Source: Candidatus Saccharimonadota bacterium (GTDB lineage: Bacteria > Patescibacteriota > Saccharimonadia > Saccharimonadales > UBA10212). Taken from it: 33,476 nucleotides of DNA. The position numbers and the translations under genes were made by a program. A model generated the notes under the pieces. The model saw only the letters and a list, made by a program, of their open reading frames with translations. It had not been told where the DNA came from and did not search any database. Position 1 is the first letter of the stretch. Each line of letters begins with the position of its first letter. The DNA lies in NCBI GenBank assembly GCA_025934715.1, contig JAICWR010000007.1:1-33476 (forward strand). Direction: 5' to 3'. This document shows positions 9,014 through 17,734 of this stretch, one piece after another.

Positions 9014-9183
9014 CGCATTGACCTGCTTTCCGGCGCAGCCGAAAACGCCGTCAGTGCTTGTGGCGCTCTGCTTCGTTGCCCGCTCCGCTGCTCGTTCACT
9101 GTATTACTTATACAGCTCGCTCCGCTGCTCGCGAGCGCCTTGCATAGCATCCACATGAGGTGCGTCAATGGCTCCACTTTCAC
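9010..9183 (-). CDS. Putative leaderless upstream ORF (57 aa) coupled to polA
   Basis: TATACT at 9191-9196 (minus), 7 nt gap, GTG at 9183; open to TGA at 9010-9012, which overlaps the polA GTG (GTGA). Below the length cutoff of the supplied ORF track. Confidence 0.4.
   Translation of the reverse strand: MKVEPLTHLMWMLCKALASSGASCISNTVNEQRSGQRSRAPQALTAFSAAPESRSMR
9062..9139 (-). repeat. Structured repeat element in polA leader
   Basis: Outer inverted repeat GGCGCTC (9062-9068)/GAGCGCC (9133-9139); inner hairpin CTGTAT/ATACAG (9099-9115); 14-bp direct repeat CGCTCCGCTGCTCG at 9081-9094 and 9118-9131. Confidence 0.7.
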
Positions 9184-9223
9184 AGTAGATAGTATACTCC
9201 ACCTCTGTTATTTGAGCGACTGC

Positions 9224-11589: not shown

Positions 11590-12159
11590 TTATATCAATC
11601 CGCTTAGGGCTTTGCCTATAGACCACTTGAACACTTCGAGATTATCGCTGTCGTTATTGATGAATATGTCGGCTTTGGCTTTGACGCCCGAAAGGTTCAG
11701 GGTAGTTTCGTCGCCCTGGTGGCGCATTTGGGCCTGTTCTTCGGCCTTAAATTCTTTAAAAGTGACCTGGTCTTCGGTGCCTTTATTCCTTTTCACCGCC
11801 CTCTGATAGCGGATTTTGAGAGGAGCGTCCAGCCAAATTACTTGACCGCCGAGTTCGTGTATTCTGTCCGCTTCGCCAGGGTTACGCAAGCTAGCCAAGA
11901 CCAGGCCACTGTGTTTGCGCGGCTGTTTATTGAATTCAGTAATCGCTTTATCGACTAAAACGCCTAGGCCTGACCCAGTCCGCCATTCGGCGCTTATATG
12001 CTTAAGTGTGCCGCGCGATAGCGGCATTCCCCTCTTGCGGGCTTCGTTTCTCAATAAATCGGTGACTGAGATAAAAAGCCAGCCATATTCATCCTGCAAA
12101 AATTGACCAAGTGAGTCCTTCCCCGAACCATCCGTGCCGCCAATACCGATGAGCTTCAT
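11590..12159 (-). CDS. P-loop nucleotide/dephospho-CoA kinase-like protein
   Basis: [21 protein letters not shown] Walker A; 4-nt overlap with upstream sigma gene. Confidence 0.75.
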
Positions 12160-13430
12160 ATTGCCCGGCTATTATCGAATAGTTCCTTTATGGCAAGTTT
12201 ACCGTCTTCCCTAACACGAGATGAAGTGCTGGTTATTTTAATCTTCCTGTAAATTTTCCGAAGGTCATCCTTCACTGTTCCTTCCCCTATCCCCATGGCT
12301 TTAGCTATATCCCTGTTTGACTTACCCCGTAACAAAAGGTGGCTAACTATTGTTTGGCGTTCTGTGAAGTTTTCTAGTTTTTGGATTTTATAGAAATGGA
12401 GCATTTCTTCTAGGTCATTGCCGGGTAGTGTTATGAAATTATCATCATCCTTGGTCACATCCCGTAAGCCAGGTACCTCCCTAAGTTCGCTCAAGGCTTT
12501 TGCTTCAATTTTCTTCACAGTGTCGCGAGGGATTCCGAGCTTTTTACTAACTTGGGCAATGGTCATTGGCGCTTGCTCTTCCTGGGCTTCATGGTTTATG
12601 CCATAGCGAAGCCTTAGAACTTTGGCCTGCGCCTTGCCTTCGGCGCCAGAACCTTCCATGTGCTGGAGTATTTCATGTATTAATTTACTCCTGTCTGCCT
12701 CATCAATTGTCTCTTCCCAGCCCGATGAACTCTCTGATTCATCTGGGAACATCTCCATGAGTTCTCCGTCATCATCGCCCTCACCCAGCTTTTTGTTGAG
12801 CGAGAGATTGGCCGAAGGGACACCTTGGTACTCTTCAATCCGTTTAGGCTCATAGTTGGTCAGTTCAGCAAGCTCATCAATGGTCGGCTCCCGGCCATTT
12901 TTCCTTTCAAAAGCTGCCGCAGTGCCATAGATTTTAGTTCGGCGCTCTTCTATGTGCACCGGGATGCGGATTGTCTCGACACCATTATAAATTGCCCTCT
13001 GGCAGGCCTGGCGTATCCACCAGGTGGCGTAAGTGCTGAATTTATAGCCCATGCGGTAATCGAACTTATCAACAGCCCTAGTGAGGCCTTCGGCCACGCC
13101 TTCTTGGACTAGCTCCAAAAGAGATAAGCCCCGGCCCATAAATTCTCGGGCGATGGATATGACCAGTTTATAGTTGTTATCCATCAGTTCCTGGCGTGCC
13201 GCCATATCGCCGCTTTCTATACGCTTGGCCAAAGCCACTTCTTCTGCAGCAGTGAGGATCCTATGCTGGGCCATTCGGTCTATGGCAAACCTTTCGCTAT
13301 CGCTAACAGGCCGGCTAATTACTTCTCCAGCCACCACGCGTAACCCGTCTACCGCAACCCTTGGTTCTGTAACCGCCAATTCGCCAGAGGGCCCATCCTC
13401 CGGTAACCATTCCTGTGCACGCTCGACCAT
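12156..13430 (-). CDS. Sigma-70-family sigma factor with extra C-terminal LuxR/GerE-type HTH
   Basis: Sigma region 2 ([19 protein letters not shown]), region 3/4, then [48 protein letters not shown] matching LuxR HTH pattern. Confidence 0.88.
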
Positions 13431-13502
13431 TTAATTAAATTGTACTTAAATGTTTGAGTTTATTGCAATTTTATCGCGGTTTTTTGAAAGCTGCTGCTGG
13501 TT

Positions 13503-14585
13503 CTACCCGGCCAGCCTAAGCGTTGGCGGCTCCTCATCCTCAAGGGATTTCCTGCCTGCTAGTTCTTCAAAATCGCCAACACTGTTAATACCGTCGCCTC
13601 TCAAGAATGACTCAAGCTCTTTAAGGGCATTTTTTTCTATCTGGCGGACACGCTCACGCGTGACTCCGTACCGGCGGCCCACTTCCTCAAGGGTTTCCGG
13701 CGGCTCCCCATCGAGCCCATACCGGCGGATTAGTATATCGCGGGATTTTTTTTCTCTTATCTTTGAGATCCCGTTTTTTATAATATCCACCTCGCCCTTC
13801 CCTATTGCGTGTCTCTCGGGGTCAATCGCATTTTCATCCTCGACAAAGTCTCCTAGCACACTATAGTCATTGCCAACTGGAGTATCGAGGCTGGCATGAT
13901 CCGCCGCTAACTCCATTAGCCGTAGTACTCTGCCCGGGGTGGAGTCCATCTTGGCCGCGATCTCTTCCGGCGTGGGATCGATGATTTGTTCCTGTTCCAA
14001 TTTGCGGCGGGCATTGACCATTTTTCTCACTTCTTCGTGTACATGAATCGGCAGGCGGACGTTACGCCCCTTCTCGGCAACCGCCCGGGCAATTGATTGC
14101 TTAATCCACCAGGTGGCGTAAGTTGTGACACGGTAGCCCATTTTGTAGTCAAATTTTTCAATCGCCCGGATGAGCCCCAAATTACCTTCTTGGATCAAGT
14201 CCATCATTGGCAAGTACCTGCTTTGGTGGCGTCTGGCTATGGAAATTACCAGGCGTAGGTTGTGTTCTATTAGGGCAGTTTTGGCGGCCTGATCACCTTC
14301 GTCTTTCAGTCGGGCCAGTCGTTTCTCTTCATAGCTGGTCAGCAAACTATTTGGCACCTGCCGGACGTATATTTTAAGCGGGTCTGCCTGCCGGACGGAT
14401 TCTTCCACCAATTCCATTTGTGAAGAAGCTTTCCGCTCAACCGCGAATTCCTCAAAATCAGCTATGAGCCTGGGGTCTTTATCCATTCTGGCCAGCTCGA
14501 TGTCGTACTCAGACATAGGTGGCTGATATTCATCAGAGTTTGAGTTAATCGCGGGTGTGAATTCGTGCTTGTTGGGAAGTGCCAT
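13503..14585 (-). CDS. RNA polymerase sigma-70-family factor (second paralog)
   Basis: DLIQEGNLGLIRAIEKFDYKMGYRVTTYATWWIKQSIARA; TLEEVGRRYGVTRERVRQIEKNALKEL. Confidence 0.95.
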   Translation of the reverse strand: MALPNKHEFTPAINSNSDEYQPPMSEYDIELARMDKDPRLIADFEEFAVERKASSQMELVEESVRQADPLKIYVRQVPNSLLTSYEEKRLARLKDEGDQAAKTALIEHNLRLVISIARRHQSRYLPMMDLIQEGNLGLIRAIEKFDYKMGYRVTTYATWWIKQSIARAVAEKGRNVRLPIHVHEEVRKMVNARRKLEQEQIIDPTPEEIAAKMDSTPGRVLRLMELAADHASLDTPVGNDYSVLGDFVEDENAIDPERHAIGKGEVDIIKNGISKIREKKSRDILIRRYGLDGEPPETLEEVGRRYGVTRERVRQIEKNALKELESFLRGDGINSVGDFEELAGRKSLEDEEPPTLRLAG

Positions 14586-14613
14586 AGTGTGGAGATTAAA
14601 TTACGCTATAGGT

Positions 14614-15765
<1,152 letters not shown>

Positions 15766-15796: not shown

Positions 15797-17557
15797 TTAC
15801 GGGGTTGTCTGTTTGATCAAACGGTTGAGTTTATCGACTTTCCCAAGCAGTTTCTGGATGTCTTTTTCGGATTTGGCCTGTTCCATGGACTCGGCCAGCT
15901 GGTGTTTTTGGATTTTGACATACCGGTCTATCAGCCGGCGTTTGAGGCTCACGGCCTGTTCTTCCAGGTCATTCAGGGGTAAGTCCTGATAAATTTCCTC
16001 AAACTGTAACATTAGAATTTTAACATATTCTCCATAAGGTTGCAACTGTTCGGCCACCTTAGGATCGCCCTTAAAGTCTGGCTGTTGCTGCATGAACTCA
16101 AAAACTTTCCGTCGCGGGTCGTCGCTGAAAAATTCCGGCTGGCAGTCCTTGATATACATGCGCAATTTGGGCTGCATCAGGGCGATGGCCAGCAGGTGGT
16201 CCTGCAGGCGTTGATATTCGACCGTGGTTTTATCAAACGCCGTGGTAACGTTTTTGGGACGCCGCAACACGACTTGCGGCGCTGGCTGGTTAGCGAATTT
16301 GGTTTGTATGGCTTCCAGGCTGGTATCCGTTAATTTGGCGATTTCCTTTAGGTAATGCTCCTGCTCGACCGGATCGCGCAGCCGGCGGATAGTTGTCAGG
16401 AGCGCGTCAGTAAAAGTTTTTTTACCGGCAGCGGATTTTAAATCGACTTCGTCTTTATAGCGGTCCATCAGCCAGTCCGGGGCATATTGGGCTTGTTCGA
16501 TGGCCTGGTTCCAAAAATGCACGTCTTTTCTAATTAGCTCATCGGGGTCTTTGGCGTCTGGGTCTTTGATAGAGATTATTTTAAGGGCCACACCGGCTTT
16601 TTGGGCCAGTGGGATGATGCGTTCAGTGGCATCGATGCCGGCCCTGTCGGCGTCAAAGCATAGCCTGATATCACCAGTAAAACGTTTCAACTCCTTTAGG
16701 TGCTGCTCCGTCATCGCGGTTCCGGCGCTGGCCACCACATTGGTGGCGCCGGCCTGCCAGCTGGAAATCACATCCAGGTTGCCTTCCACTACGACCACAA
16801 AGCCGGTTTTGCGAATGGCTTCTTTGGCGAGGTGCAGGCCGAAGACCTGCCGGCTTTTGTCGTAAGTGACAGTCTGAGGCGTGTTGATATATTTGGGCGC
16901 GTTAGGCTCATCTTCCAGCAGCCGGGCTGTAAAGCCGACAATCTGGCCGCGGCTGTCGGCCAGCGGAATCATAATACGGCCGCGGAACATATCGCTGGTG
17001 TGGCCAGTCCGCTGGATTACGACCCCGGCCCGTTTCATTTCATCTGTTGTGAAGCCTTGTTTAGTCAGAAAGTTAGTAAGCGCAAAACCAGTGTTAGGCG
17101 CGTAACCAAGCCGCCACTCTAAAATCGTAGTTTTAGTGAAGCCGCGCTGTTTGGCCAAATACTCATAGGCCGGTTTATTAACTGTCAGCTGCTTTTGGTA
17201 GAACTTAGCGGCCAGCTCCAGCACTTCCAGCGCCCGGTTCTTGAGTTTGGCACTGGTGCCGGGCTTAGTACTGCGGAACTGGTCCAGATCAACCCCAGCC
17301 TTGCGGGCCAGATGTTCTAGCGCGCCCTTAAAATCCAGCCCTTCCATTTCCATAACAAAGGTGAACATATCGCCGCCCTTACCGCTGGAAAAGTCGTGCC
17401 ATATCTGTTTTTCAGGGCTGACAATAAAACTGGGAGTTTTTTCATTAGTCCACGGGCTCAAACCCTTAAAGTTCCGGCCAGTCCGCTTCAATTGAACATA
17501 CTCGGATATCACATCCTCAATATTCAACCGGCTTTTAACCTCCGCTACCGCATCCAT
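15797..17557 (-). CDS. dnaG: DNA primase DnaG (zinc-ligand-less N-terminal domain)
   Basis: NEKTPSFIVSPEKQIWH, GFTARLL, VVEGNLDVIS, CFDADRAGIDA toprim motifs; start placed at ATG 17557 (MDAVAEVKSRLNI) rather than GTG 17572. Confidence 0.95.
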   Translation of the reverse strand: MDAVAEVKSRLNIEDVISEYVQLKRTGRNFKGLSPWTNEKTPSFIVSPEKQIWHDFSSGKGGDMFTFVMEMEGLDFKGALEHLARKAGVDLDQFRSTKPGTSAKLKNRALEVLELAAKFYQKQLTVNKPAYEYLAKQRGFTKTTILEWRLGYAPNTGFALTNFLTKQGFTTDEMKRAGVVIQRTGHTSDMFRGRIMIPLADSRGQIVGFTARLLEDEPNAPKYINTPQTVTYDKSRQVFGLHLAKEAIRKTGFVVVVEGNLDVISSWQAGATNVVASAGTAMTEQHLKELKRFTGDIRLCFDADRAGIDATERIIPLAQKAGVALKIISIKDPDAKDPDELIRKDVHFWNQAIEQAQYAPDWLMDRYKDEVDLKSAAGKKTFTDALLTTIRRLRDPVEQEHYLKEIAKLTDTSLEAIQTKFANQPAPQVVLRRPKNVTTAFDKTTVEYQRLQDHLLAIALMQPKLRMYIKDCQPEFFSDDPRRKVFEFMQQQPDFKGDPKVAEQLQPYGEYVKILMLQFEEIYQDLPLNDLEEQAVSLKRRLIDRYVKIQKHQLAESMEQAKSEKDIQKLLGKVDKLNRLIKQTTP

Positions 17558-17662
17558 CCCGTTAGACTCCACTTAACTTTCGCACCTTTAATAACGTCCG
17601 GAGCTCGGTGCTTACTTCGACGAACACGAAACTTTCAAAACCTCCTTGGAGTCTAACGGGAT
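17556..17662. repeat. 16-bp perfect inverted repeat (75-nt spacer) flanking dnaG leader
   Basis: ATCCCGTTAGACTCCA at 17556-17571 and TGGAGTCTAACGGGAT at 17647-17662. Confidence 0.95.
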
Positions 17663-17666
17663 CCAT
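17562..17666 (-). CDS. Putative leaderless upstream ORF (34 aa) preceding dnaG
   Basis: ATG 17666, 7 nt after TAAACT; reads MDPVRLQGGFESFVFVEVSTELRTLLKVRKLSGV, TAA 4 nt before dnaG ATG. Confidence 0.4.
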   Translation of the reverse strand: MDPVRLQGGFESFVFVEVSTELRTLLKVRKLSGV

Positions 17667-17734
17667 ACTTACTAGTTTAAGGCTCCGGGCCCAAAGCCAA
17701 AAGCTTAAGCGACCTGTTTTGCTATGATGAGTTC

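Follow-up and report, generated by a model that had tools for sequence, protein, structure and literature searches.

A dnaG Leader in Saccharibacteria Is Apparently One Copy of a Family of Tiny Mobile Elements That Insert at Gene Start Codons in Patescibacteria

Anatomy of the dnaG Start

Why should the primase gene dnaG begin directly behind a short open reading frame (ORF) and within the arm of a long hairpin? The window considered here, which is the whole 33,476-nt stretch of DNA that was analysed, carries on its minus strand, in this order, TAAACT (17674–17679), 7 nt, an ATG (17664–17666) opening 34 codons, a TAA (17562–17564), CGGG, and the dnaG ATG (17555–17557). This layout, with the stop of the 34-codon ORF 4 nt before the dnaG ATG, was described in an earlier note on this DNA and is exact on re-reading. 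The leader ORF with its TAA (MDPVRLQGGFESFVFVEVSTELRTLLKVRKLSGV) occupies 17562–17666, and dnaG itself (15797–17557, 586 aa) is intact. The 16-nt inverted repeat that had been called perfect is indeed 100% complementary; its left arm (17647–17662) and right arm (17556–17571) are 75 nt apart, and it is the sole inverted repeat detected in 601 bp. The right arm contains a GGAG (17567–17570), the TAA of the leader, and the AT of the dnaG ATG. The RNA fold predicted for the leader has an energy of -46 kcal/mol (z = -3.5), and none of 200 shuffles was equally stable. A second copy of the arm was found neither in the window (up to three mismatches) nor in the 0.71-Mb genome (up to two mismatches), which argues that the inverted repeat is more than chance. 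The description of GGAG as the only evident Shine–Dalgarno (SD) sequence holds near the dnaG ATG, where it is the sole SD-like motif, but a stronger AAGGAGG (17641–17647) lies just inside the loop. Directly downstream of dnaG (12156–15765, minus strand) are three consecutive genes for sigma-70-like proteins of 383, 360, and 424 aa, which is many for a 0.7-Mb genome.

dnaG in Related Genomes

Judged by dnaG, the named close relatives of the window genome are Saccharibacteria metagenome-assembled genomes, with which it groups; all genomes compared are draft assemblies. No such leader precedes dnaG in 29 other Saccharibacteria-type genomes read. A promoter-like TANNNT stands 4–9 nt before the dnaG ATG in 23 of these 29, most often at 6 nt, an arrangement of the leaderless type. 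We therefore read the -10-like TAAACT, 7 nt ahead of the left ATG in the window, as the ancestral leaderless dnaG promoter and the left ATG as the ancestral dnaG start codon. The same-genus genome G002 has an empty site, TTATACTTAAAGT-ATGGACGCGG, where the window reads TTAAACTAGTAAGT-ATGGAT[CCCGTTAGA...TCTAACGGG]ATGGATGCGG and G012, a member of another genus, reads TATAAACTTAACGT-ATGGAT[CCCGTTAGACC...GGTTCTAACGGG]ATGGACGCGG (inserts in brackets). The insertion point is after the ancestral ATGGAT in both, and the site is empty in G004 and G015, which are congeners of G012. Because the inserts of the window and G012 belong to different subfamilies (103 vs. 106 nt), dnaG has probably been struck twice, by separate insertions at the same base.

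A Dispersed Family at Start Codons

Among 393 genomes of the order, 17 contain the arms-only pattern CCCGTTAG N64-94 CTAACGGG, with up to 19 copies per genome; the backwards control of the pattern gives almost no matches. Forty-six copies were gathered with their flanks by arm sequence alone. An RTG stands immediately behind the element in all 46, opening an ORF of at least 57 codons in 45 of them, and an RTG also stands in front of the element in nearly all. Gene starts make up 13 of the 1005 TGRR sites in this window, so the position of the element is not random. Position relative to the start codon was tested only by arms-only searches, the start-constrained pattern including the start codon itself. 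The host genes are unrelated as judged by their N-termini, which are recO-, rpiB-, tsaD-, uvrD-, murB-, pilM-, and rfbA-like. At the pilM start the element is present in G015 and absent in at least 10 relatives; the pilM query was approximate (68% identical to the G015 protein) and was used solely for finding orthologues. At the pilM start of another genome (L286, G011), ATGAGC is immediately preceded by a minimal hairpin, CCGTTAGCTCC-GGAGGAGCATAACGGG, which may be what is left of a collapsed element. We conclude that the dnaG leader is apparently one copy of a tiny mobile-element family in Patescibacteria that inserts at gene start codons.

The borders of the copies indicate how the element is delimited. 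The left and right ATGRR agree in RR (AA, GA, AG, or GG) in nearly all copies, and the RR positions are not paired to each other by the stem. With an ATG as the right start, CCCG is preceded by T; with a GTG, it is preceded by C in 3 copies and by T in 1. This preceding base thus pairs in every copy with the right start codon's first base. Copies away from starts, which have, for example, G.TTTA, G.TCTA, or A.TCAA behind the element, obey the same Y-R end-pairing rule. These sequences are most simply read as an element YCCCG...CGGGR flanked by a 4-bp duplication TNNR, which at starts would be TGRR, the element giving the first base of the start codon. On this reading the duplicated target in the window is TGGA, with its left copy at 17662–17665 and its right copy at 17553–17556, and the inserted element YCCCGTTAGA...TCTAACGGGR spans 105 nt (17557–17661, minus strand); its final base is the A of the dnaG ATG, and it encloses the 103-nt subfamily core CCCG...CGGG (17558–17660). 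L142 and L155 (G491) show a nested insertion, in which an older copy has received a second element at TTTA/TCTA sites within its right end.

Stem, Leader Frame, and Translational Coupling

Covariation in the 16-bp stem across the 46-copy alignment is 0.232, compared with 0.109 in shuffles (none of 500 reached the observed value) and at most 0.095 in slid controls; the eight inner pairs are invariant by construction, CCCGTTAG and CTAACGGG being the search pattern, and the signal comes from the other eight. The proposed stem burying the SD sequence and start codon is thus real, and the copies show what a coupled leader calls for in this respect, a stable stem over both sites that is backed by covariation. 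Read from the left ATG, 39 of 46 copies keep an open frame through the element; the two remaining forward frames are open in 2 and 0 copies, and dinucleotide shuffles give 9.0 ± 2.7. In copies of length 1 mod 3 the open leader frame ends at a TAA 4 nt before the gene start, in those of length 2 mod 3 it ends on the ATGA of the gene or up to 11 nt upstream, and both copies of length 0 mod 3 among the 46 have an early stop. The elements at L160 (G004) and L175 (G006), of 63 and 66 nt (0 mod 3), are stop-free and form an in-frame N-terminal extension of the host gene instead of a coupled leader. Substitutions inside the leader have no codon-position bias; by this measure conservation extends to the openness and end point of the leader and not to its peptide, and we rejected a conserved leader peptide on this ground. 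Translational coupling would call for just such a leader, open and terminating at the gene start. The earlier suggestion that leader translation opens the dnaG ribosome-binding site (RBS) is thus sustained as far as the frame is concerned, which is kept open and ends where coupling predicts; the coupling itself we infer from sequence, the anatomy fitting a downstream translation that would depend on leader translation.

A Full-Length Form with a GIY-YIG Nuclease

L167, a copy of 272 nt containing a GIY-YIG gene, was reached from element ends that had no partner close by, and a search was then made with the L167 protein. GIY-YIG genes flanked by the same ends as the short copies are present at 11 loci, and these longer copies, of ~273 nt, encode a UPF0213-like nuclease. 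The nuclease matches the Pfam GIY-YIG model (1.2e-16), and its nearest solved structures are the UPF0213 proteins of PDB entries 1zg2 (E 1.1e-6) and 1ywl (E 0.037). In six intact fusions (L209, L210, L211, L214, L215, and L218) the frame begins at the host ATG, passes through MSPVRA or MNPVRA into the nuclease, and ends with LKRFLALTG or similar, its TGA overlapping the ATGA of the host gene. The six proteins have catalytic-type Y, R, and E positions in common and a mean column identity of 76% in the alignment. With its frame fused to the host ATG and its stop on ATGA, the nuclease is placed for expression from the host promoter and start, and the host gene for expression by reinitiation.

The mobile unit contains the GIY-YIG domain in the full-length relatives; the window copy is without it. 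The interiors of short copies do not match the nuclease gene, and their descent from the full form therefore rests on their ends and architecture. No GIY-YIG gene with these ends was found in the window genome (assembly ~95% complete), for which reason we take the window copy to be, in all probability, an immobile relic. Further small GIY-YIG genes are flanked by different terminal repeats. Two of these genes, L236 (G012) and L219 (G696), abut the RNase P RNA motif AGGAAAGTCCG, and Rfam confirms rnpB beside the gene at L236; the small GIY-YIG genes at rnpB are likely a sister class inserted there.

Given these observations, we consider it likely that the dnaG leader belongs, as a non-autonomous copy, to a family of GIY-YIG elements that insert at start codons and keep the host gene expressed by translational coupling. 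The sequence features behind this reading are the dispersed family, the target duplication, the empty sites, the start-codon position, the covariation, the open frame, and the nuclease fused to host starts; beyond them, the nuclease would move the elements, the short ones in trans, translation would be coupled, and survival at start codons would depend on the coupling. An element would have entered an ancestrally leaderless dnaG in the region of its start codon and duplicated 4 bp of target (TGRR of RTGRR), which would re-create the host start codon directly behind the element, with its first base supplied by the element. In a full-length relative of ~273 nt, the host promoter and start codon would open the nuclease frame (MNPVRA..., MSPVRA...), which would end on the ATGA of the regenerated start, and the host gene would be translated by termination-reinitiation. 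A ribosome in the leader would melt the stem that hides the SD sequence and start codon, stop within a few nucleotides of the start, and restart. The copies of ~100 nt, including that of dnaG, have no nuclease but keep the ends, the stem, and an open frame, so that the host gene would still be expressed.

Range across Patescibacteria

Of 380 genomes drawn over the phylum, 17 contain the start-constrained pattern; close nuclease relatives are present in 67 of 380, many with CCCGTTAGA-type ends. No nuclease relatives were found in plasmid and phage collections at 1e-5, and the 17 matches of ATGGATCCCGTTAGA in viral contigs do not exceed the number roughly estimated to arise there by chance for a 15-mer. 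In other Patescibacteria lineages, eight or more arms-only copies lie away from start codons and the leader often stops early, which argues that coupling is not universal. We therefore claim the strict start-codon habit for the window's own order and make no such claim for the phylum. Somewhat less firmly than in the case of the dnaG leader, we lean toward a phylum-wide class of autonomous elements of ~273 nt, with one GIY-YIG nuclease of ~93 aa, that would invade start codons, borrow the host promoter and ATG, and rebuild the start with a coupled, stem-gated reinitiation site. This class would include nuclease-less derivatives spreading in genomes and would have sister classes, distinguished by other terminal repeats, at rnpB and perhaps within rRNA genes.

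Leaders at polA

The earlier note had observed that polA and dnaG both have leaders in this window. The polA leader is indeed an addition of ~170 nt that is absent in the same-genus G001, where the polA start reads GGAGTATACTATCT then GTAATGGCTCAG, but its sequence is unrelated to the dnaG element, and we rejected a common dnaG/polA leader for this reason. It opens with GTG and ends on GTGA (9014–9200, minus strand), and its TTGACGCACCTCA can pair with TGAGTGCGTCAA in the polA coding start. Different hairpin inserts occur at the polA starts of L238 (G005; CCCCGGCACTAAAA..TTTTAGTGCGGGG) and L241 (G006; CCCCAGCACCAAAATC..GATTTGGTGCGGGG), the latter apparently duplicating the polA start.

Alternative Explanations

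We regard it as very improbable that the leader was selected to control primase through leader-peptide translation and an RBS-hiding hairpin. The stem and the coupled ORF are real and the dnaG of G012 has the same architecture, but dnaG is without it in the 29 relatives while the element stands at many unrelated genes, the peptide has no codon-position bias, and two dnaG copies of different subfamilies point to separate insertions. The dnaG-specific (replication) regulatory leader of the earlier note is also disfavoured by the target duplications, the empty sites, and the longer relatives with a nuclease gene, and we reject it on the distribution of the element, which occurs at dozens of unrelated genes. 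Even less credible to us is removal or skipping of the insert at the level of RNA or ribosome, by intron-like splicing or by bypassing from the left to the right ATGRR. The stem would bring two identical ATGRR together and removal would restore the ancestral leaderless mRNA; against this, the right start codon makes removal needless, an open frame ending at the gene start is something that removal would not require, and the element matches no Rfam intron or ribozyme.

An ordinary miniature inverted-repeat transposable element (MITE), moved by an unseen conventional transposase (DDE or other) with the GIY-YIG gene as cargo and with selection against other insertions as the only cause of the start position, is unlikely but deserves more weight. 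Terminal repeats and a short target duplication are typical of DDE elements, and some copies in other lineages are off starts. Terminal repeats with 4-bp duplications are not known as products of GIY-YIG enzymes, and a recombinase not seen here could therefore be responsible. Against an ordinary MITE, the sole gene found between these ends, at 11 loci, is the GIY-YIG nuclease, and selection alone should leave copies at intergenic TGRR sites, yet 46 of 46 are at RTG.

Comparison with Known Systems

Like the MITEs Correia/NEMIS, ERIC, and RUP, the element is short and dispersed, with terminal inverted repeats, a target site duplication, and non-autonomous copies. It differs from them in its start-codon position in 46 of 46 Saccharibacteria-type copies, its fixed orientation to the gene, and the GIY-YIG identity of the gene between the same ends; no transposase partner was found between these ends in a census that was not exhaustive. 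Neither the window nor nine element loci gave an Rfam match at gathering score to a riboswitch or intron, including a group I or II core as expected of self-splicing introns. Integron attC sites were considered and rejected: the arm letters resemble GTTRRRY/RYYYAAC in reversed order, and the copies are single at gene starts. The UPF0213 proteins 1zg2 and 1ywl were deposited as stand-alone hypothetical proteins, in contrast to the element nuclease, whose gene is flanked by terminal repeats and fused to host starts. We found no published description of the terminal repeats, start-codon insertion, or short derivatives in the open-access literature searched, and we know of no family for which start-codon replacement with restored expression has been described.

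Rickettsia palindromic elements (RPEs) are palindromic inserts of ~100–150 bp at unrelated genes that are compatible with translation (PMC10969869), and in these respects the short inserts described here are alike. RPEs form in-frame fusions inside ORFs, whereas the element lies exactly at start codons, with the start regenerated and the leader frame mostly ended there; in-frame insertion was seen only as the N-terminal extensions at L160 and L175, and only the element has related full copies that encode a nuclease. A 2024 survey of rRNA genes in the Candidate Phyla Radiation (CPR) reported GIY-YIG proteins in inserts matching no intron class, as well as ORF-less inserts of <200 bp, mostly at the top or base of stems (PMC11270868). 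Those inserts are described in rRNA genes only, with no description there of terminal repeats, target duplication, or start-codon insertion (PMC11270868); they and the start-codon elements may be the same class.

If our reading is true, these elements would rank with the smallest self-encoded mobile elements known, and they would account for the dispersed hairpins and leader ORFs at gene starts in CPR bacteria. Leader ORFs of Patescibacteria that begin with M(N/D/S/G)PVR should then be annotated as element and not as host, and it would become testable by what route a GIY-YIG nuclease could bring about an insertion that has terminal repeats and a target duplication.
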